A program made the translations under genes and the position numbers. The notes below the pieces were generated by a model, which saw nothing but the letters and a program-made list of their open reading frames with translations, was not told the origin of the DNA and made no database searches. A stretch of 64,000 nt of DNA from Burkholderia lata (GTDB taxonomy: Bacteria > Pseudomonadota > Gammaproteobacteria > Burkholderiales > Burkholderiaceae). Positions within the stretch are counted from its first letter, which is position 1. The number at the start of each line of letters is the position of its first letter. The stretch is from NCBI RefSeq assembly GCF_000012945.1, contig NC_007510.1, positions 1,736,001 through 1,800,000 of the forward strand. The letters are read 5' to 3'. This document shows positions 13,333 to 22,047 of the stretch, piece after piece.

Positions 13333-13511
13333 ATATGACGAACGCATGGCGAGAGAAAAATTTTCTACATCCGGACGAACCCGGAGAGCCTGTTACTTTA
13401 CATTTCGCTAAAATCCCGTAGCGCCGTGCGCCGGAACCGGTGCCACGTGTGATCGTACGCGGCGGCCCCCGCCGTCTCGCCCAGAAAGCACTAAAAGGAA
13501 CTGACCAATCC

Positions 13512-14816
13512 ATGGACGTCCAGACCGACCAAGCTGCGCTGTCCGCGCATGACACCCGGCGGCGCGTGTTCGCCATCGTCGGCGCCTCGTCGGGCAACCT
13601 CGTCGAGTGGTTCGACTTCTACATCTACTCGTTCTGCGCGCTGTACTTCGCGCCGGCATTCTTCCCGAGCGGCAACACCACGACGCAGCTGCTGAACACG
13701 GCGGGTGTGTTCGCGGCCGGCTTCCTGATGCGTCCGATCGGCGGCTGGCTGTTCGGCCGCATCGCGGACCGCCACGGCCGCCGCAACGCGATGATGATCT
13801 CCGTGCTGATGATGTGCGGCGGCTCGCTCGTGATCGCGGTGCTGCCGACCTATGCGCAGATCGGCGCGCTCGCACCGGCGCTGCTGCTGGTCGCGCGGCT
13901 GTTCCAGGGGCTGTCGGTGGGCGGCGAATACGGCACGAGCGCGACCTACATGAGCGAGGTGGCGCTGAAGGGCCGCCGCGGCTTCTTCGCGTCGTTCCAG
14001 TACGTGACGCTGATCGGCGGCCAGCTGTGCGCGCTGCTCGTGCTCGTGATCCTGCAGCAGACGCTGTCGGCCGACGAACTGAAGGCGTGGGGCTGGCGCA
14101 TTCCGTTCGTGGTCGGCGCGGCGGCCGCGCTGATCTCGCTGTACCTGCGCAAGTCGCTCGACGAGACGTCGACGACCGCATCGCGCGACAAGAAAGACGC
14201 GGGCACGATCCGCGGCGTGTGGCAGCACAAGGGCGCGTTCTTCACGGTGGTCGGCTTCACGGCCGGCGGCTCGCTGATCTTCTACACGTTCACGACGTAC
14301 ATGCAGAAGTACCTCGTGAACACGGCCGGCATGCATGCGAAGACGGCCAGCAACGTGATGACCGTCGCGCTGCTCGTCTACATGCTGATGCAGCCGGTGT
14401 TCGGCGCGCTGTCCGACCGGATCGGCCGCCGCACGTCGATGATCCTGTTCGGTTCGTTCGCGGTGATCGGCACGGTGCCGCTGATGCATGCACTGAAGGA
14501 CGTGACGAGCCCGGTGGCCGCATTCGTGCTGATTACCGTCGCGCTCGCGATCGTCAGCTTCTACACGTCGATCAGCGGCCTGATCAAGGCCGAGATGTTC
14601 CCGCCGGAAGTGCGCGCGATGGGCGTCGGCCTGTCGTATGCGGTCGCGAACGCGATCTTCGGCGGTTCGGCCGAGTACGTCGCGCTGTGGTTCAAGTCGG
14701 TCGGCAGCGAGGAAACCTTCTACTGGTACGTGACCGTGCTGTGCGCGATCTCGCTGATCGTGTCGTGGCGGATGCGCGATCCGAGCAAGGAAGGGTATCT
14801 GCGTCACGAGCCGTGA
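13512..14816 (+). CDS. MFS transporter, metabolite:H+ symporter (MHS) family
   Basis: A 434-residue major-facilitator protein with about 12 hydrophobic segments. [14 protein letters not shown] in TM1 and the loop 2-3 signature [10 protein letters not shown] place it in the MHS group, which includes alpha-ketoglutarate permease KgtP, the proline/betaine carrier ProP and citrate carriers. KgtP-like dicarboxylate uptake is a reasonable guess, but substrate cannot be assigned by motif. The ATG at 13512 is preceded by AAGGA; the frame opens 72 bp earlier with a poorly conserved stretch. It stands alone between two terminators, so it is probably monocistronic. Confidence 0.85.
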
Positions 14817-14891: not shown

Positions 14892-15821
14892 TTACGCGGG
14901 TGGCGGCGGTGCGTGGTCGGGCGCCGGACCGGATGCGCTCGACAGGCTGCCTTGCTCGACCAGCCATTCGAACATCCGCTCGACGATCGGCGAGCGCGAC
15001 GGGCCTTCCATGCGGGACAACCACCACGTGGTGCCGGGCAGGCGCGGGTAGCCGGCGAGCACGGTCAGGGTGCGCTGGTCGATGCCCGCCTGCGCGACGA
15101 GGCGCGGCAGGCAGGCGATGCCGCGGCCGCGCAGCACGGCGTCCAGCACGAGCCGCTGGTCGTCGTAGATCGCATGCATCCGGAATGCCGACAGCCGCTC
15201 GCGGAACACCGTCGCCAGGCGCTCGTCGGTCAGGCTGGCTTCGAGACAGATGACTCCCGCGTGCTGCGGGTGCTCGTCGCGCGGCACGCGTTCGAGTTGT
15301 TCCGCCAGCGGCGTCGCGCACACCGTCACCCATTCGTCCCGCATGAACGGGATATCCAGCAGGCCGGGCTGCAGCATCGGCCGCGTGCCGATCGTCATGT
15401 CGACGTCGATCTCGTCGACGTAGCGCGCGGTTTCGTCGGTCGACAGCAGCGGGCACAGGTCGGGCAGGACCTGCTGCAACTGTTCGAGACGCGGCTGCAG
15501 CCAACCGTGCAGCAACGGCGCGGGACACACCAGCACGACGAGCCCCGGGTTCAGGTAGGTCGCGATGCGGTCGAGGCCGCCGCGCAACGTGTCCATCGCG
15601 CGCTGCACGCTGCGCTGCAGGACCTCGCCGGCGATGGTCAGTTCGACACCGCGGCCGCGCCGGCGGAACAGCGGCTGCCCGAGCTGCGCTTCGAGCTGCT
15701 GGATCTGATGGCTGATCGCCGATTGCGACAGGTGCAGCTCGTCGGCCGCGCGCGAGAAATTACCCAGCCGGGCCGCGGCTTCGAAGCCGGTCAGCAGTTT
15801 CAGGGACGGAACGCGTTGCAT
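14892..15821 (-). CDS. LysR-family transcriptional regulator
   Basis: A 309-residue LysR regulator transcribed divergently from the agmatine deiminase operon. Its N-terminal winged helix is intact (FEAAARLGNFSRAADELHLSQSAISHQI), followed by a LysR substrate-binding domain. LysR proteins usually control the divergent neighbour, so it is the best candidate regulator of the polyamine genes at 15923-21913, perhaps responding to agmatine or a related amine; this is inference. The ATG at 15821 is chosen because the LysR N-terminus conventionally starts close to the helix-turn-helix; a TTG 33 bp upstream is in frame. It ends just beyond the shared terminator. Confidence 0.88.
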   Translation of the reverse strand: MQRVPSLKLLTGFEAAARLGNFSRAADELHLSQSAISHQIQQLEAQLGQPLFRRRGRGVELTIAGEVLQRSVQRAMDTLRGGLDRIATYLNPGLVVLVCPAPLLHGWLQPRLEQLQQVLPDLCPLLSTDETARYVDEIDVDMTIGTRPMLQPGLLDIPFMRDEWVTVCATPLAEQLERVPRDEHPQHAGVICLEASLTDERLATVFRERLSAFRMHAIYDDQRLVLDAVLRGRGIACLPRLVAQAGIDQRTLTVLAGYPRLPGTTWWLSRMEGPSRSPIVERMFEWLVEQGSLSSASGPAPDHAPPPPA

Positions 15822-15922
15822 CGAGGTATGAGGTGAATTGATTAATTCGGCCAATAAATATCAATATTCATCAAGTTTAACCTGACGCACAATCGGCCAT
15901 CAATCACAACGGAGACGGAACG
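15822..15922. promoter_or_regulatory. Divergent LysR / aguA promoter region
   Basis: This short AT-rich gap separates the LysR gene from aguA. It contains GAATT-GATT-AATTC (15835-15848), a perfect 5-bp inverted repeat, and further alternating A/T sequence to about 15890. Dyads of this kind are typical LysR contact sites, but no experimentally known box can be matched. A Shine-Dalgarno (GGAGACGGAACG) precedes the aguA ATG at 15923. Confidence 0.5.
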
Positions 15923-16960
15923 ATGGGTCGCTTTGATGCTCGCCAGCGCGGTTACCGGATGCCCGCGGAATGGGAATCCATGGATGCCACGTGGCTCGGA
16001 TGGCCGGTTCTCCACGATCGCGAGGATCTGTGGGGGAGCCATTACGCGCAGGTGTGTCGCGAATTCGCGCTGGTCGCGCGGACGATCGCCCGCTACCAGC
16101 GCTGCGTGGTGGCCGCGCACCACAGCCAGGCCGACGCGGCGCGCGAACTGGTGGGCGCGAGCGTCGACGTGGTGCCGGTCGCGGCCGAAGACAACTGGCT
16201 GCGCGACTGCGGGCCGATCTTCCTCGTGAGCGAACAGCACGGGCTGGGCGCGGCCGTGTTCCGCTTCAACTGCTGGGGCGAGAAGTACCAGCCGTACGAC
16301 GGCTGCCAGCAGGCCGGGCAGGACATCGCGCGCGCGGCCGGCGCGGAGATCTTCAATTCGCACATGGTGCTGGAGGGCGGCTCGTTTTACGTCGACGGGC
16401 AGGGCACACTGGTCACCACCGAGAGCTGCCTGCTGCATCCGAATCGCAATCCGCACCTGAGCCGCGCGGAAATCGAGGCGGAGCTGCGCCGCATGCTGGG
16501 CGTCGAGAAGATCATTTGGCTGCCGGGCAATCCCGACGAAGTGGAGACGAACGGGCACGTGGACGGCATCGCGTCGTTCATCGCACCCGGCCGGATGCTG
16601 TGCCAGACCGCGCTGCCGGAGCAGGGCGACTATTTCCACGTGATGCGGGAAAACCGTCGCGCGCTGGAGCTCGCGACCGATGCGGCGGGGCGCCGTTTCG
16701 AGCTGCTCGACCTGCCGTCGCCGATCGTCACCGAACGCTTCGGCTCCGAGCGCTACTGCGATTGCTATGCGAACTACATCCTGGTGAATGGCGCGGTGAT
16801 CGTGTCCGCGTTCGGCGTCGAGCAGGATCAGGCCGCGCGCGAGGCGTTCAGTCGTGCGTTCCCGGGGCGTAACGTGGAGATGCTGCCGATTCCGACGCTG
16901 TCGATCGGCGGCGGCAGCATCCACTGTTCGACGCAGCAACAGCCGTCCGTCGCGAACTGA
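15923..16960 (+). CDS. aguA: Agmatine deiminase, cytoplasmic
   Basis: This enzyme converts agmatine to N-carbamoylputrescine and ammonia, the first step of the AguA-AguB route to putrescine. The 345-residue length and motifs fit the peptidyl-arginine-deiminase-related AguA family: EDNWLRDCGP (a Cys where the two paralogues below have Thr), the LEGGS turn, NGHVDG carrying the catalytic His, and the C-terminal GGGSIHCSTQQQP with the nucleophilic Cys. There is no signal peptide. It is the first gene of a probable five-gene operon; aguB follows after 46 bp. Confidence 0.95.
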   Translation: MGRFDARQRGYRMPAEWESMDATWLGWPVLHDREDLWGSHYAQVCREFALVARTIARYQRCVVAAHHSQADAARELVGASVDVVPVAAEDNWLRDCGPIFLVSEQHGLGAAVFRFNCWGEKYQPYDGCQQAGQDIARAAGAEIFNSHMVLEGGSFYVDGQGTLVTTESCLLHPNRNPHLSRAEIEAELRRMLGVEKIIWLPGNPDEVETNGHVDGIASFIAPGRMLCQTALPEQGDYFHVMRENRRALELATDAAGRRFELLDLPSPIVTERFGSERYCDCYANYILVNGAVIVSAFGVEQDQAAREAFSRAFPGRNVEMLPIPTLSIGGGSIHCSTQQQPSVAN

Positions 16961-17006
16961 GCGACGTTTCGTCAGCGGTTTCCGGTCCTACCGAGGAGCA
17001 ATCGCA

Positions 17007-17921
17007 ATGCCGTCCAAACACATCACCGTCGCCGCCGTCCAGATGGCGTCGGGCAACTGGAATCTCGAAGACAACATGGCCACCGCGGAGCGCCTGATCC
17101 GCGCGGCCGCCGCACAGGGCGCGAATCTCGTGCTGTGCCCGGAGCTGTTCGCGATGCCGTACTTCTGCCTCGACCAGAACGTGCGCCATCTCGAACTTGC
17201 GCAGCCGTTCGAAGGCAATGCGCAGATCGCCCGTTTCGCGGCGCTGGCCGGCGAACTCGGCATCGTGCTGCCGATCGGCTTCTTCGAGCGCGCGGGCAAT
17301 GCCGCGTACAACTCGATCGCCGTCGCGGACGCGGACGGGCGCGTGCTCGGCGTCTATCGCAAGACGCATATCCCGGATGGGCCGGGCTATACGGAGAAGT
17401 TCTATTTCACGCCGGGCGACACCGGCTTCAAGGTGTGGGATACGCGCTTCGGCCGAATCGGCATCGGCATCTGCTGGGACCAGTGGTATCCGGAAACCGC
17501 ACGCAGCCTCGCGCTGATGGGCGCCGAGATCCTGTGCTTTCCGACCATCATCGGCTCGGAGCCGTTCAGCAGTGCGTTCGATTCGTCCGGCCACTGGCAG
17601 CGCACGATGCAGGGCCACGCGGCCGCCAACATGGTGCCGGTGGTGGCCGCGAACCGGATCGGCCGCGAAGTCGGCTTCGGCAACGGCAATCCGGAGCAGC
17701 AGGGGCTCACGGGCGTGTTCTACGGGTCGAGCTTCATCGCGGATCACACCGGCGAGAAGCGGGCCGAGGCGAACCGCACCGACGAAGCCGTGCTCGTGCA
17801 CACGTTCGATCTCGACGCGATCCGCGCCGACCGGCAATCGTGGGGCTTTTTCCGCGATCGCCGCCCGGAGATGTATCGCACGTTGCTGACCAGCGACGGC
17901 GTATCGTCCTGTTATCGATGA
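17007..17921 (+). CDS. aguB: N-carbamoylputrescine amidase
   Basis: A nitrilase-superfamily hydrolase of 304 residues that cleaves N-carbamoylputrescine to putrescine, CO2 and ammonia, completing the pathway begun by AguA. The catalytic triad is visible: Glu in CPELFAMPYF, Lys in YRKTHIPDGPGY and Cys in GICWDQWYPE. The ATG at 17007 is preceded by GAGGAG; the frame is open further upstream but overlaps aguA without conservation. The polyamine-binding protein gene starts 10 bp after its stop. Confidence 0.95.
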   Translation: MPSKHITVAAVQMASGNWNLEDNMATAERLIRAAAAQGANLVLCPELFAMPYFCLDQNVRHLELAQPFEGNAQIARFAALAGELGIVLPIGFFERAGNAAYNSIAVADADGRVLGVYRKTHIPDGPGYTEKFYFTPGDTGFKVWDTRFGRIGIGICWDQWYPETARSLALMGAEILCFPTIIGSEPFSSAFDSSGHWQRTMQGHAAANMVPVVAANRIGREVGFGNGNPEQQGLTGVFYGSSFIADHTGEKRAEANRTDEAVLVHTFDLDAIRADRQSWGFFRDRRPEMYRTLLTSDGVSSCYR

Positions 17922-17931
17922 GGAAGGCCCG

Positions 17932-19044
17932 ATGAAACGGAAAGGATGGTTGCGCTTCGCGGTGCCGGGCCTCGCGCTGTGCATGCTGGCCGGCATGGCC
18001 CGCGCCGATGAAGAGAAGGTGCTGAACCTGTACAACTGGAGCAATTACTTCGCGCCGGATACGATTGCCGGCTTCGAAAAGGAAACCGGCATCAAGGTGC
18101 GCTACGACGCGTACGACAGCGACGAGACGCTGCAGTCGAAGCTGCTGACCGGCAACAGCGGCTACGACCTCGTGTGGCCGACCAACGACTTCATGGCCAA
18201 GCAGATCCAGGCCGGCGTGTTTCGCAAGCTCGACAAGAACCGGCTGCCGAACCTGAAGTATCTCGATGGGTCGCTGCTGAAGCAGATGGCGCAATCCGAT
18301 CCGGGCAACCAGTACGGCGTGCCGTACATGTGGGGCACGGTGGGCGTCGGCTACGACCGCGCGAAGGTGCGTGCGATCCTCGGCAAGGACATGCCGGCCG
18401 ACAGCCTCGACCTGCTGTTCAAGCCGGACATCGCCGCGCGCGTCGCCGCGAAGTGCGGGCTGGGCCTGCAGGATTCCGCGAGCACCGTGCTGCCGCTGGC
18501 GTTGCGCTATATCGGCCGCGATCCGATGCATCCGTCCGCGCAGGACTATGCGGCCGCGCAGGCGATGCTGATGAAGATCCGGCCGTTCATCCGCGAGTTC
18601 GTCAATTCGTCCGATGCCAACGAGCTGATCGACGGCGAGCTGTGCGTGACGATCGGCTTCTCCGGCGCGATCAACCTGGCCGCGCAGAAGGCGAAGGCGC
18701 GCGATCCGAAACGCGACGTCGTGTACGACATTCCGCGGATCGGCACCCTGATGTGGTTCGACGCGATGGTCATTCCGGCCTCCTCGAAACATCCGGACAA
18801 CGCGCATGCGTTCATCAACTACATCCTGCGTCCGGACGTGATCGCGAAGATCTCGAATTCGACGCGCTACGCGAATGCGAACCAGGGCGCGCTGAAGCTG
18901 ATGGATCCGGCGCTGGTGCGCGATCCGGGCATCTATCCGGACGAGGCGACGCGGCGTACGCTGTTCACGCCGATCGCCGAATCGCCGGCCGCGATGCGTA
19001 TTGAAGGCCGGACCTGGCTCGGCTTCAAGACGGCGCGACCTTGA
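17932..19044 (+). CDS. Polyamine ABC transporter periplasmic binding protein (PotF/PotD-like)
   Basis: A secreted binding protein of 370 residues with a signal peptide ending A-R-A before DEEK. The mature start, VLNLYNWSNYFAPDTI, is diagnostic of the putrescine/spermidine-binding family (PotF, PotD, SpuD). Placed directly after aguB, it should capture agmatine, putrescine or a related polyamine. No polyamine permease or ATPase gene lies in this operon, so it must work with a transporter encoded elsewhere or act in sensing. The operon continues 76 bp downstream with an exported agmatine deiminase paralogue. Confidence 0.92.
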   Translation: MKRKGWLRFAVPGLALCMLAGMARADEEKVLNLYNWSNYFAPDTIAGFEKETGIKVRYDAYDSDETLQSKLLTGNSGYDLVWPTNDFMAKQIQAGVFRKLDKNRLPNLKYLDGSLLKQMAQSDPGNQYGVPYMWGTVGVGYDRAKVRAILGKDMPADSLDLLFKPDIAARVAAKCGLGLQDSASTVLPLALRYIGRDPMHPSAQDYAAAQAMLMKIRPFIREFVNSSDANELIDGELCVTIGFSGAINLAAQKAKARDPKRDVVYDIPRIGTLMWFDAMVIPASSKHPDNAHAFINYILRPDVIAKISNSTRYANANQGALKLMDPALVRDPGIYPDEATRRTLFTPIAESPAAMRIEGRTWLGFKTARP

Positions 19045-19120
19045 CCGCGCGTCACGAAGCCACCGAACGATTGAAACGACCGAAGCACACGAAGTAACCG
19101 GCACGAGAAAGAGGAATGCC

Positions 19121-20233
19121 ATGACAACGAGACGTCAACTGTTGAAACGCGGCCTGTCCGTATCTGGGGCGGCGCTGGCCGCCAGCGCGCTGGGCGGGTT
19201 GCTCGGCCGCGCCGCGCACGCGCAGCAGGGCGCAACCTGGCACATGCCGGACGAGGGTGCGCCGCACACGGCGACGTGGATGGCGTTCGGCCCGAGCGAG
19301 GACATCTGGGGTGCGCGGCTGTTGCCCGTCGCGCGCGCGAACCTGGCCGCGATCGCGAAGGCGATCGCCGCGCACGAGCCGCTCAAGATGCTGGTGCGCG
19401 AGCAGGACTACGCAATCGCGTCGCGGCTGTGCGGTTCATCGGTCGAGCTCGTCCAGCATCCGGTCGACGATCTGTGGATGCGCGACACGGGGCCCGTGTT
19501 CGTGAAGAACGCGTCGGGCCAGCTCGGCGGCGTGAGCTTCAATTTCAACGGCTGGGGCAACAAGCAGGAGCACGACCAGGACGCGGAAGTCGCGCCGTTC
19601 GTGGCGGAGCGCGCCGGTGCACGGCTGCTCGACACACGGCTGGTGCTCGAAGGCGGCGGCATCGAGGTGGACGGCGAAGGCACGGCGATCATCACGCGCA
19701 GCTGCGTGCTCAATTCGAACCGCAATCCGGGCGTCGGCCAGGCACAGTGCGAGGCGGAGCTGAGCCGGCTGCTCGGGCTGAAGAAGATCATCTGGCTGCC
19801 GGGCATCGCGGGCAAGGACATCACCGACGGGCATACCGATTTCTATGCACGCTTCACGAGCCCGGGCGTCGTGGTGGCGGGGCTCGATACCGATCCGTCG
19901 TCGTACGATCACGCGGTGACGCGGCAGCATCTGGAGATCCTGCGGAAATCGACCGATGCGAAGGGCCGCCCGTTGAAAGTCGTCGTACTGCCGGGCCCGA
20001 AGTCCGTCCGGCATCAATACGAGAACGAGGAATTCGCGGCAGGTTATATCAACTTCTACGTGTGCAACCGCGCAGTGATCGCCCCGCAATTCGGCGACAG
20101 CCGCGCCGACCGCAATACGCGCGACACGCTCGTCGACCTGTTTCCGGGGCGCGAGGTCATCCAGCTGAACATCGACGGCATCGCCGCGGGCGGCGGCGGC
20201 ATCCACTGCACCACGCAGCAGCAGCCGGCCTGA
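19121..20233 (+). CDS. Agmatine deiminase paralogue with a Tat signal peptide
   Basis: A second AguA-family enzyme (370 residues), with a twin-arginine signal peptide (TTRRQLLKRGLSVSG, hydrophobic core, end A-H-A before QQGA), so it is predicted to be folded in the cytoplasm and exported to the periplasm. Catalytic features are all present: WMRDTGPVF, LEGGGIEVDGEG, DGHTDF and GGGGIHCTTQQQP with the nucleophilic Cys. The start at 19121 is preceded by AAGAGGAA. It should hydrolyse agmatine, or another guanidino compound, outside the cytoplasm. Its place between a polyamine-binding protein and a third paralogue suggests one system. The substrate is inferred. Confidence 0.88.
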   Translation: MTTRRQLLKRGLSVSGAALAASALGGLLGRAAHAQQGATWHMPDEGAPHTATWMAFGPSEDIWGARLLPVARANLAAIAKAIAAHEPLKMLVREQDYAIASRLCGSSVELVQHPVDDLWMRDTGPVFVKNASGQLGGVSFNFNGWGNKQEHDQDAEVAPFVAERAGARLLDTRLVLEGGGIEVDGEGTAIITRSCVLNSNRNPGVGQAQCEAELSRLLGLKKIIWLPGIAGKDITDGHTDFYARFTSPGVVVAGLDTDPSSYDHAVTRQHLEILRKSTDAKGRPLKVVVLPGPKSVRHQYENEEFAAGYINFYVCNRAVIAPQFGDSRADRNTRDTLVDLFPGREVIQLNIDGIAAGGGGIHCTTQQQPA

Positions 20234-20241
20234 ACCCGGCC

Positions 20242-20268
20242 GCGGGCCGGCATGCGTGACCGGCCCGC
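20242..20268 (+). other. Intercistronic hairpin in the polyamine operon
   Basis: A 9-bp perfect GC-rich stem (GCGGGCCGG / CCGGCCCGC) with a 9-nt loop, 8 bp after the fourth gene. No T-run follows, so it is more likely an mRNA 3' stabiliser or partial attenuator than a full terminator. Confidence 0.5.
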
Positions 20269-20383
20269 ACGACCGTAGCAGGCAGCAGTTCATTCCGGAC
20301 TACTGAAAACAATGCGGAATCCGTCTTGCGAGACGGAAGCCGGCGCGCCCGCGCGCGCGCCGACCGCGCAATGGAGTTGAAAC

Positions 20384-21913
20384 ATGACGAAACGACGTAC
20401 CCACGCGCGCGCAGGCAAGCGTGCGCAGCACGCACCGGATACCGGCCGGCGCGGCTTCATTCGATATTCGGCCGCCTTTCTCGGCTTGCCGCTGCTGGGC
20501 AGCCTGGCCGCTTGCGGTGGCGGCGGCAGCGACGGTGCATCCGGCGCGGCTTCCACGTCGCCAGGCACGACACCCGGCACGAAGCCGTCGACGCGGCCGG
20601 TCACGTACCGGCTGCCTGCCGAAGATGCGCCGCACGCGTCGACCTACATGGCCTTCGCGTCCGGTGCGGACGGCATCTGGCTGCCCGTCACGCCGCAAAG
20701 CACGGATGCCGGCATCGACCGCGTGCGGGCCGACCTGATGGACGTCGCGAAGGCGATCGGCGCAACCGAACCGGTCGACATGCTGGTGCTGCCGGCCGAT
20801 CTCGACGCGGCCCGCGCGCTGCTCGCGACCGCGAGCGTCGCGAACCCGGACCTGCATGCGCGCTACGCGGCCCGCGCCGCGGGCGCGGGCGGGATCAACC
20901 TCGTGCCGCTCGCCGACGGCTTCAACGATTTCTGGGTGCGCGACACCGGGTGCCTGTTCGTCAGGGATACGACGAACGACAATGCGCTGAATGCGGTCGG
21001 CTTCAATTTCAACGGCTGGGGCAACGCGAACACCGACGGCGCCGGCATGAGCCCCGGCGCGACGGTCCCGCCGGAAGTCGCGGCCGCGAGCAACCGCTCG
21101 AAGGCGGGCAAGTTCTTCCAGCCGTTCGGGCGCGACAACACGGTGGCGGGCTGGATGGCGCAGCGCAAAGGCGCGAGCCTGATCCGCAGCACGTTGACGC
21201 TCGAAGGCGGCGCGATCGAATTCGACGGCGACGCGACGGCGATCCTCACCGAATCGTCCGTGCTGCACGTGAACCGGAATCCGCAACTGTTCGACATCCC
21301 GAACGGCGTGATCGCGAATGCGACGCTGCTGCCGACGGCGAAAGACACGGTGCTCGCCGAACTGCAGCGCACGCTCGGCGTGCGGAAGATCATCTGGCTG
21401 CCGGGCACGGCGACCTATCCGCGCAGCAGCGGCGTGGGCGGCGCCGGTGGCGCGGCGACGCCGGCCGGCGAGACCGACATCACGAACGGGCACGTCGACT
21501 TCTACGCGCGCTTTCTCGCGCCCGGCGTGGTCGCGTGCTGTTACGACGCGTCGAATTCGACCGGCGAACGCGCGTTGACGGACGCCAACCGGCAACGGCT
21601 CGCGGGCGAGACCGATGCGAACGGCCGGCCGCTGCAGATCGTCGAGCTGGTGCCGCCGGTCAATTTCGGCACGTCGGCCGGCACGAGCCTGAACGACCGG
21701 CAGATGACGAATTTCGCGGCCGGCTACATCAATTTCTACGCGTGCAACGGTGCGATCGTCATGCCGAAGTTCAACGACGCGGCGGCCGACGCGGCCGCCA
21801 TCGCCGCGATCCGGCCGTATGCGGGGAACCGGGCGATCGTGCAGGTCGACATCCTCGGCATCGCATCGGGCGGCGGCGGTATCCACTGCTCGACCCGCGA
21901 AGTGCCGGCGTGA
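20384..21913 (+). CDS. Agmatine deiminase-like Tat lipoprotein
   Basis: The third AguA-family protein in the operon (509 residues, well above the usual 340-370). The N-terminus combines a twin-arginine motif (RRGFIRYSA) with a lipobox (LAAC followed by GGGG), so it is predicted to be a Tat-exported lipoprotein with a Ser/Gly/Pro/Thr-rich linker. The catalytic core is recognisable: FWVRDTGC, LEGGAIEFDGD, NGHVDFYARF and GGGGIHCSTREVP. It differs from the other two: Cys replaces the usual Pro after RDTG, the QQQ after the catalytic Cys is replaced by REV, and there are insertions at about residues 205-255 and 345-370. It may be an active enzyme with a changed substrate or a binding protein; sequence alone cannot decide. 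Confidence 0.82.
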   Translation: MTKRRTHARAGKRAQHAPDTGRRGFIRYSAAFLGLPLLGSLAACGGGGSDGASGAASTSPGTTPGTKPSTRPVTYRLPAEDAPHASTYMAFASGADGIWLPVTPQSTDAGIDRVRADLMDVAKAIGATEPVDMLVLPADLDAARALLATASVANPDLHARYAARAAGAGGINLVPLADGFNDFWVRDTGCLFVRDTTNDNALNAVGFNFNGWGNANTDGAGMSPGATVPPEVAAASNRSKAGKFFQPFGRDNTVAGWMAQRKGASLIRSTLTLEGGAIEFDGDATAILTESSVLHVNRNPQLFDIPNGVIANATLLPTAKDTVLAELQRTLGVRKIIWLPGTATYPRSSGVGGAGGAATPAGETDITNGHVDFYARFLAPGVVACCYDASNSTGERALTDANRQRLAGETDANGRPLQIVELVPPVNFGTSAGTSLNDRQMTNFAAGYINFYACNGAIVMPKFNDAAADAAAIAAIRPYAGNRAIVQVDILGIASGGGGIHCSTREVPA

Positions 21914-22017
21914 GCGTGTCCCGTCATATCGATAGTGAAATCGATTCGTTGTCCATGACGGGCGAATTCCTTAATCTGGGCCTGTAGTTCGTGTGACACC
22001 TCCTTGACTGGGATTCG

Positions 22018-22047
22018 CGCCCGCTGCTTGCAGCGGGCGTCTTTTTT
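22018..22047 (+). terminator. Rho-independent terminator of the polyamine operon
   Basis: A 10-bp perfect stem (CGCCCGCTGC / GCAGCGGGCG, minimal TT between the arms) followed by TC and six T residues. It lies about 105 bp after the last gene of the operon. Confidence 0.88.

Follow-up and report, generated by a model that had tools for sequence, protein, structure and literature searches.

The agu2ABCA' operon of Pseudomonas aeruginosa is taken to be induced by agmatine and to affect biofilms, and a periplasmic fractionation result is reportedly given in the agu2 paper of Williams et al. (2010). Plants, animals and bacteria all make agmatine, which is reported to alter biofilm growth of P. aeruginosa. 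As described in PMC6085387, PMC4287709 and PMC4211729, the operon of strain PA14 has the gene order A, B, C, A'; the latter two sources report it in ~20% of isolates by PCR, and state that it affects agmatine levels slightly and takes part in the response of biofilms to agmatine. PMC6085387 lists PA14_48450 (Agu2A') as an experimentally identified substrate of the twin-arginine translocation (Tat) system. Here we describe a five-gene operon of Burkholderia lata, at positions 15923 to 21913 of a 64,000-nucleotide stretch (the window; NCBI RefSeq assembly GCF_000012945.1, contig NC_007510.1, positions 1,736,001 to 1,800,000 of the forward strand). The operon is real and intact; its core is the described agu2ABCA' system, and the new part is the fifth gene, A'', with the exported lineage behind it.

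All five open reading frames (ORFs) are intact and lie on the forward strand, separated by gaps of 46, 10, 76 and 150 bp. The first, aguA (15923-16960), encodes a cytosolic AguA/Agu2A-like deiminase of 345 amino acids (PF04371, 336.9 bits), and the second, aguB (17007-17921), an N-carbamoylputrescine amidase of 304 amino acids (Pfam CN_hydrolase; TIGR03381, 467.3 bits). These are followed by a PotF/SpuE-like solute-binding protein (SBP) of 370 amino acids, orthologous to Agu2C (17932-19044; Pfam SBP families), by A', a predicted Tat-exported deiminase of 370 amino acids orthologous to Agu2A' (19121-20233; PF04371, 363.4 bits), and by A'', a putative Tat-lipoprotein deiminase of 509 amino acids with insertions (20384-21913; PF04371). 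A LysR-type regulator of 320 amino acids (14892-15854, reverse strand; HTH_1 and LysR_substrate) diverges from aguA, and a rho-independent terminator-like hairpin with a 10-pair stem and a T6 run lies downstream (22017-22040, forward strand). The whole terminator scan gave 6 sites, against 4.8 (sd 1.9) in shuffled sequences; a weak one lies at 20986, within A'', and none between the five genes. The ratios of nonsynonymous to synonymous substitution (dN/dS) over 10 Burkholderia loci are 0.111 for aguA, 0.081 for aguB, 0.173 for the SBP gene, 0.077 for A', 0.183 for A'' and 0.181 for the LysR gene; all six genes are under purifying selection among these loci. A PF04371 profile search of the 8.68-Mb, three-contig genome gave four matches, two of them the halves of A''; aguA, A' and A'' are the only PF04371 genes found there.

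The same layout is found on a P. aeruginosa plasmid (NZ_CP131792; locus L128), where LysR, aguA, aguB, SBP and A' genes stand in the window's order. Both operons have a divergent LysR gene followed by A-B-C-A' on one strand, with identities of 45, 61, 45 and 52% between the window and L128 for the four proteins in turn, the last over the whole length of A'. Most of the loci named here (L numbers) come from the best 80 of 492 scan matches, in 79 loci, and the scan patterns were derived from A'', which favours the exported clade discussed below. Among the 14 Pseudomonas loci gathered, all four genes are present in 12, the SBP of one (L078) being in two pieces; L077 has no call for B and the SBP, and in L093 the contig ends at A'. 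A preliminary description of this DNA had placed the five genes between one divergent promoter region and one strong terminator, and a single operon-like run is supported here. Its statement that no pathway with this layout had been described does not stand, since agu2ABCA' of PA14 has the same order and Agu2A' is a known Tat substrate (PMC6085387, PMC4287709, PMC4211729); A'' alone is additional.

Export signals were judged on sequence, by eye and by a script rule of our own, which missed several signals (for example in L102, L110 and L119). The Tat signal peptide predicted for A' (19121-19222, forward strand) begins MTTRRQLLKRG and would be cleaved at AHA|QQ; M1, R4 and R5 are invariant in 25/25 relatives, and the AlphaFold2 (AF2) model of A' (predicted template-modelling score, pTM, 0.80) has a low predicted local distance difference test score (pLDDT) over residues 1-36. 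Export of A' is near certain. For A'' the putative Tat signal peptide (20384-20512, forward strand), GRRGFIRYSAAFLGLPLLGSLAA|C44, ends at a lipobox, LAA|C44, and by inspection all features of a Tat lipoprotein are present: a twin-arginine motif in GRRGFI, a hydrophobic stretch and the lipobox Cys in LAAC. Export of A'' is likely. R22 and R23 are found in at least 90% of 27 aligned rows and the lipobox Cys in 20 of the 27, so that not every member of the A'' family would be lipidated. Beyond Cys44 lies a linker rich in Gly, Ser, Thr and Pro, with low pLDDT. By the Lol rule, Gly at position +2 after the lipobox Cys marks a lipoprotein for the outer membrane; A'' has Gly there and is probably anchored by lipid to that membrane. 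The N-terminus of the L128 A' is the Agu2A' signal given in PMC6085387, bar one extra Met in L128.

The catalytic residues Cys366, His224 and Asp226 (numbered as in the Medicago truncatula agmatine iminohydrolase, MtAIH) are present in AguA, A' and A'', and the best fold matches of the exported enzymes are agmatine deiminases. Also upheld is the proposal that two members of the deiminase family, both with an export signal and unbroken catalytic motifs, stand beside a polyamine-type binding protein. According to PMC6447857, Asp220 of MtAIH is the acid that holds the amine of agmatine in the plant enzyme; this position is Glu in the window's AguA (VETNGHVD) and Ile in both A' and A'', in which the adjoining acid (D233/D365) is retained. 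The exported clade also has Glu at E182/E279 in 95/95 rows, against 1/27 cytosolic rows, and Arg or Lys at R244/R376 in 95/95, with Arg in 2/27 cytosolic rows. Guanidino chemistry is likely for A' and A'', with agmatine a candidate substrate; widespread exported deiminases that lack the amine-binding acid are commonly annotated as agmatine deiminases, perhaps wrongly.

Trees were built from 72 rows drawn from 129: L116, L064_7622, L190, L096_12732, L109, L092 and L123 were left out by name and the remaining rows beyond 72 by random draw, and L156 was retained despite long branches. All 40 rows with a non-acid, non-Met, DIT-type motif form one clade of the 72-deiminase tree, with an ultrafast bootstrap (UFBoot) of 100 and a Shimodaira-Hasegawa-like approximate likelihood ratio (SH-aLRT) of 99; the SH-aLRT is still 99 after the motif and the residues behind EGG are masked. 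Of the clade rows 37/40 are called exported, against 1/32 other rows, that one (L122) being a call from an over-extended ORF that was reset to not exported for the trees. Among the clade members are some that look truly cytosolic (L085, the first copy of L067, L108 and L114). A'' forms a long-stemmed branch within the clade (7 rows, support 100/100), with a stem of 0.89 changes per site in a separate tree. The window's AguA, the placement of which is weakly supported, and Pseudomonas Agu2A both fall outside; because A' and A'' share one well supported clade and AguA lies outside it, they are not recent duplicates of AguA. We also gathered 206 unique family members, 128 called exported and 78 not; 127 of the 128 lack an acid four residues before the catalytic His, the exception being L122, and the 78 have an acid (42), Met (17), Ile (17) or Gly (2) at that position, counts that are descriptive only, since the gathering scan used patterns derived from A''.

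A tentative and somewhat doubtful extension of these results would see in the exported PF04371 clade an old enzyme family in its own right, acting on its own substrate: the deimination chemistry has been kept, the clamp for the agmatine amine is missing, a constant Glu and Arg/Lys are present instead, and the enzymes of Proteobacteria and Actinomycetota work extracytoplasmically. On this view two such enzymes, one of them anchored in the outer membrane, and an SBP retuned to the carbamoyl product would make up a Burkholderia pathway of extracytoplasmic deimination and salvage. Within one open-access library we found no description of an exported deiminase of this clade apart from agu2, and PMC9956245 gives no secreted localisation for the agmatine deiminase of Frankia.

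Among 65 Burkholderia genomes (G numbers denote genomes), PF04371 genes were found in 23, A' in 20 and A'' in 19, and A, A' and A'' are linked in 15. The three paralogues need not occur together: G008 has A and A' without A'', and G052, which lacks AguB, has no PF04371 gene other than A''. The A'-A'' pair lies apart from aguA in G021 and G048, in Paraburkholderia acidicola (L054) A'' lies on the other strand, facing the operon, and in L034, L035, L036 and L132 it follows a second SBP gene and a DUF3138 gene. Because its placement varies in this way (absent, apart, alone, or with an SBP and DUF3138), A'' is a separable module. Taking AguB as absent where no TIGR03381 match reaches an E-value of 1e-100 or better, we find it in 27/37 genomes that carry an exported copy; of the 42 Burkholderia genomes without PF04371, 12 were tested and 2 have it. 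An exported enzyme is the sole deiminase, in the absence of AguB, in G519, G639, G792, G824, G354 and the Burkholderia genomes G014 (A') and G052 (A''); the first four belong to the seven A' genomes found among 394 of one alphaproteobacterial family, presumably the Rhizobiaceae. Solo A' genes adjoin unrelated genes, and none of nine neighbours, one of which matched nothing, is an amidase match. An earlier notion of ours, that the product goes unused where AguB is missing, is softened by the description in PMC12283126 of AguY, an alternative amidase that may replace AguB. Phyllobacterium was dropped as a case of exported A' and AguB without cytosolic AguA, which would have argued strongly for import of the product; its cytosolic deiminase lies just beyond the LysR gene. 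In Ensifer a similar ATP-binding cassette (ABC) operon includes a deiminase that appears cytosolic. In a Paraburkholderia symbiont metagenome-assembled genome (MAG; L059) the five-gene set is mostly in broken pieces, as if decayed.

The binding protein bears on the fate of the product. According to PMC8666671, S38, D39 and D247 of PotF hold one amine of the ligand, with E185 and D278 at the opposite end, D39, D247, D278 and E185 being conserved at 96% or more. Among 14 SBPs (that of the window and 13 Burkholderia and Paraburkholderia relatives), D247 is replaced by Ala in 14/14, D39 by Asn in 10, the window included (the rest having His, Glu, Asp or a gap), and E185, in a column that is approximate, by Thr in 12 and Leu in two, whereas D278 is kept throughout; taking that column as it stands, D278 is the only one of the four carboxylates retained in the window SBP. 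Three other polyamine SBPs, from six regions of the same genome, retain D247. The window SBP scores 365.1 bits against the PotF equivalog PRK10682, under its cut-off of 636. Such a pocket would suit a ligand that has an amine at one end and is neutral at the other, N-carbamoylputrescine for example, and the loss of D247 in all 14 SBPs, which a ligand of this kind would permit, favours product capture. The AguB score, over the 410.25-bit equivalog cut-off of TIGR03381, also counts in favour of product salvage.

We give about an even chance to the reading that the agu2-type operon converts an external guanidino-amine, agmatine by default, outside the cytoplasm, with part of the product salvaged. 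The LysR protein would probably drive the operon. The guanidino-amine would enter the periplasm, where soluble A' and lipid-anchored A'' would turn its guanidine into a ureido group, releasing ammonia. Some of the carbamoylated product, which with agmatine as substrate would be N-carbamoylputrescine, would be caught by the adjacent SBP and handed to an ABC permease presumably encoded elsewhere, and cytosolic AguB would then hydrolyse imported N-carbamoylputrescine to putrescine, while AguA may take care of agmatine that enters intact. Gene order, homology to agu2, the export features of the sequences, intact catalytic residues and purifying selection are observed; LysR control, the activity and substrate of the exported enzymes, the direction of flow and the permease are inferred. 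Our working model treats salvage as optional: the route proposed in the preliminary description is not obligatory, since some genomes that lack AguB have A' or A'' as their only deiminase.

Several observations weigh against this reading. None of the three window deiminases reaches the 381.8-bit cut-off of the agmatine-deiminase equivalog TIGR03380 (AguA 287.1, A' 269.7, A'' 156.7), and P. aeruginosa Agu2A (302.8) and A' (245.6) are likewise under it; Azospirillum AguA passes at 384.9. The exported clade has Ile in place of the amine-binding acid in 93/95 rows, and the stretch that bears it (A' 233-235, A'' 343-366) has pLDDT below 50 in both models, so that the models cannot place the motif. 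AguB is absent in 10 of the 37 genomes with an exported copy, 7 of which have no other PF04371 gene. The altered SBP pocket is not general, since P. aeruginosa agu2 SBPs retain all of D39, E185, D247 and D278, and D39 and D247 are also kept by the SBPs that adjoin stand-alone A'' genes (L034-L036, L132). The operon has no permease gene of its own; the genome encodes at least five polyamine-type ABC ATPases with 44-48% identity to that of Phyllobacterium. Finally, PMC4211729 describes cepacia isolates, which may or may not carry the operon, as agmatine-neutral.

Quite possible, if short of an even chance, is that A' and A'' are extracytoplasmic deiminases of some other guanidino compound, such as an arginine derivative, peptidyl or free, or a guanidino-amine of larger size, the specificity having shifted as the enzymes left the cytosol and the agu2 operon being one of several recruitments. 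In its favour are a single, well supported and largely exported clade (UFBoot 100, SH-aLRT 99, 37/40) with a near-constant Ile (93/95) and its own constant Glu and Arg/Lys (95/95 each), and exported enzymes that are sole deiminases without AguB (7/37 genomes) or stand beside unrelated genes. Yet the acid next to the Ile is retained, Agu2A, for which agmatine is the supposed substrate, has Met in place of the acid, the top fold matches are agmatine deiminases, the genes co-occur with AguB and polyamine SBPs, and the Ile stretch itself is of low confidence in both models. Removal of extracellular agmatine as a signal or toxin, with no salvage of the product, would account for solo A' genes where AguB is missing; we consider it unlikely, as in Burkholderia an SBP gene and aguB belong to the same run, the change in the SBP pocket suits a product, and AguY may stand in for AguB elsewhere (PMC12283126), though no amidase match is among the nine neighbours of solo A' genes. 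That A'' is a redundant copy of A', or one in decay, is very improbable and already disfavoured: its dN/dS is the highest of the six genes, close to that of LysR, and its insertions are large, but that ratio is far below 1, the catalytic residues are invariant in 27/27 A'' rows down to 52% identity, A'' forms its own clade on a stem of 0.89 changes per site, and it is the sole deiminase of G052 and accompanies an SBP and DUF3138 in four loci. The operon offers a compact, testable set (two exported enzymes, an SBP with an altered pocket, and AguB) for questions of substrate and of product recapture.

Outside the coding regions, the 68-bp divergent promoter region 5' of aguA (15855-15922) contains a block at approximately 15856-15883, core ATATCAATATTCATC, that is kept across 13 aligned loci, the window counted in, and a 9-nt palindrome at 15860-15871; a sigma-70-like site was looked for 5' of aguA and not found. 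LysR orthologues with 89-98% identity occupy the same place in nine Burkholderia loci. Upstream, a major facilitator superfamily (MFS) transporter at window positions 13464-14816 exceeds the cut-offs of PRK10406 and TIGR00883 (metabolite/H+ symporter), and in many Burkholderia loci such a gene is a neighbour of the operon or of the A'-A'' pair. DUF3138 proteins match a beta-barrel porin model and are perhaps polyamine-related outer membrane porins; sites include C2:3513227-3514807 and C1:1325377-1326945 in the same genome and L035:4286-5830, and at two of three sites in the genome the gene lies within ~4 kb of polyamine-type ABC ATPases. PF02784 has one match in the genome, a 474-amino-acid frame taken by its size for diaminopimelate decarboxylase.

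Exported PF04371 genes also occur in other settings. The actinomycete loci L099, L111, L117, L118, L119 and L126 each combine, in one stretch, a signal-less aguA-like gene with several Tat or Tat-lipoprotein PF04371 copies, and the actinomycete loci L104 and L110 have several copies without an aguA-like call. L060, L067 and L075 (Janthinobacterium, Comamonas and Massilia) have a LysR gene and two tandem exported-clade deiminases; the first copy has a lipobox in L060 and L075 and is signal-less in L067, and in L075 the second copy is split in two. One run in a Burkholderiales MAG (L085) contains aguB, a signal-less exported-clade deiminase, an SBP, a distant DUF3138 match, an aminotransferase and a full ABC transporter. 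Sinorhizobium sp. RAC02 (L156) has a LysR gene, a cytosolic deiminase, a Tat-exported deiminase and an SBP; its 17-kb stretch gave no match for aguB.

The multi-copy loci of actinomycetes, Janthinobacterium, Massilia and Comamonas resemble the window operon in having several PF04371 copies per stretch, some Tat and some Tat-lipoprotein, but their copies are not of the A'' branch, and BLAST with proteobacterial references gave no SBP or AguB call alongside them, apart from one weak AguB match in L065. PPAD, the secreted peptidylarginine deiminase of Porphyromonas, is defined by a C-terminal extension beyond its catalytic domain. It has 19% identity to A' and a Z-score below those of the agmatine deiminases, and nothing in A' corresponds to its C-terminal part, the alignment ending at PPAD residue 357 and residue 369 of 370 in A'. 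With cytosolic AguA/AIH enzymes (Enterococcus faecalis 2JER, M. truncatula 6NIB), A' and A'' share the PF04371 pentein fold, the catalytic Cys, His and Asp and the Trp residues, and differ in their export signals, the Ile in place of the amine-binding acid and the unusual Glu and Arg/Lys. The operon SBP is homologous to PotF, SpuD and SpuE over nearly its whole length and keeps W37, Y40, D278 and Y314, whereas D247 has become Ala, D39 Asn and E185, in an approximate column, Thr. The closest likeness is to agu2ABCA', in which A' also has a Tat signal, recognised in the window from sequence alone and in P. aeruginosa by experiment (PMC6085387). The two differ in that agu2ABCA' has four genes and no A'', Agu2A has Met where the window's AguA has Glu, the P. 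aeruginosa SBP pocket keeps the polyamine carboxylates and that of the window is altered, and the LysR proteins have just 32% identity. The window operon is the Burkholderia version of agu2ABCA', extended by a fifth gene, A''.

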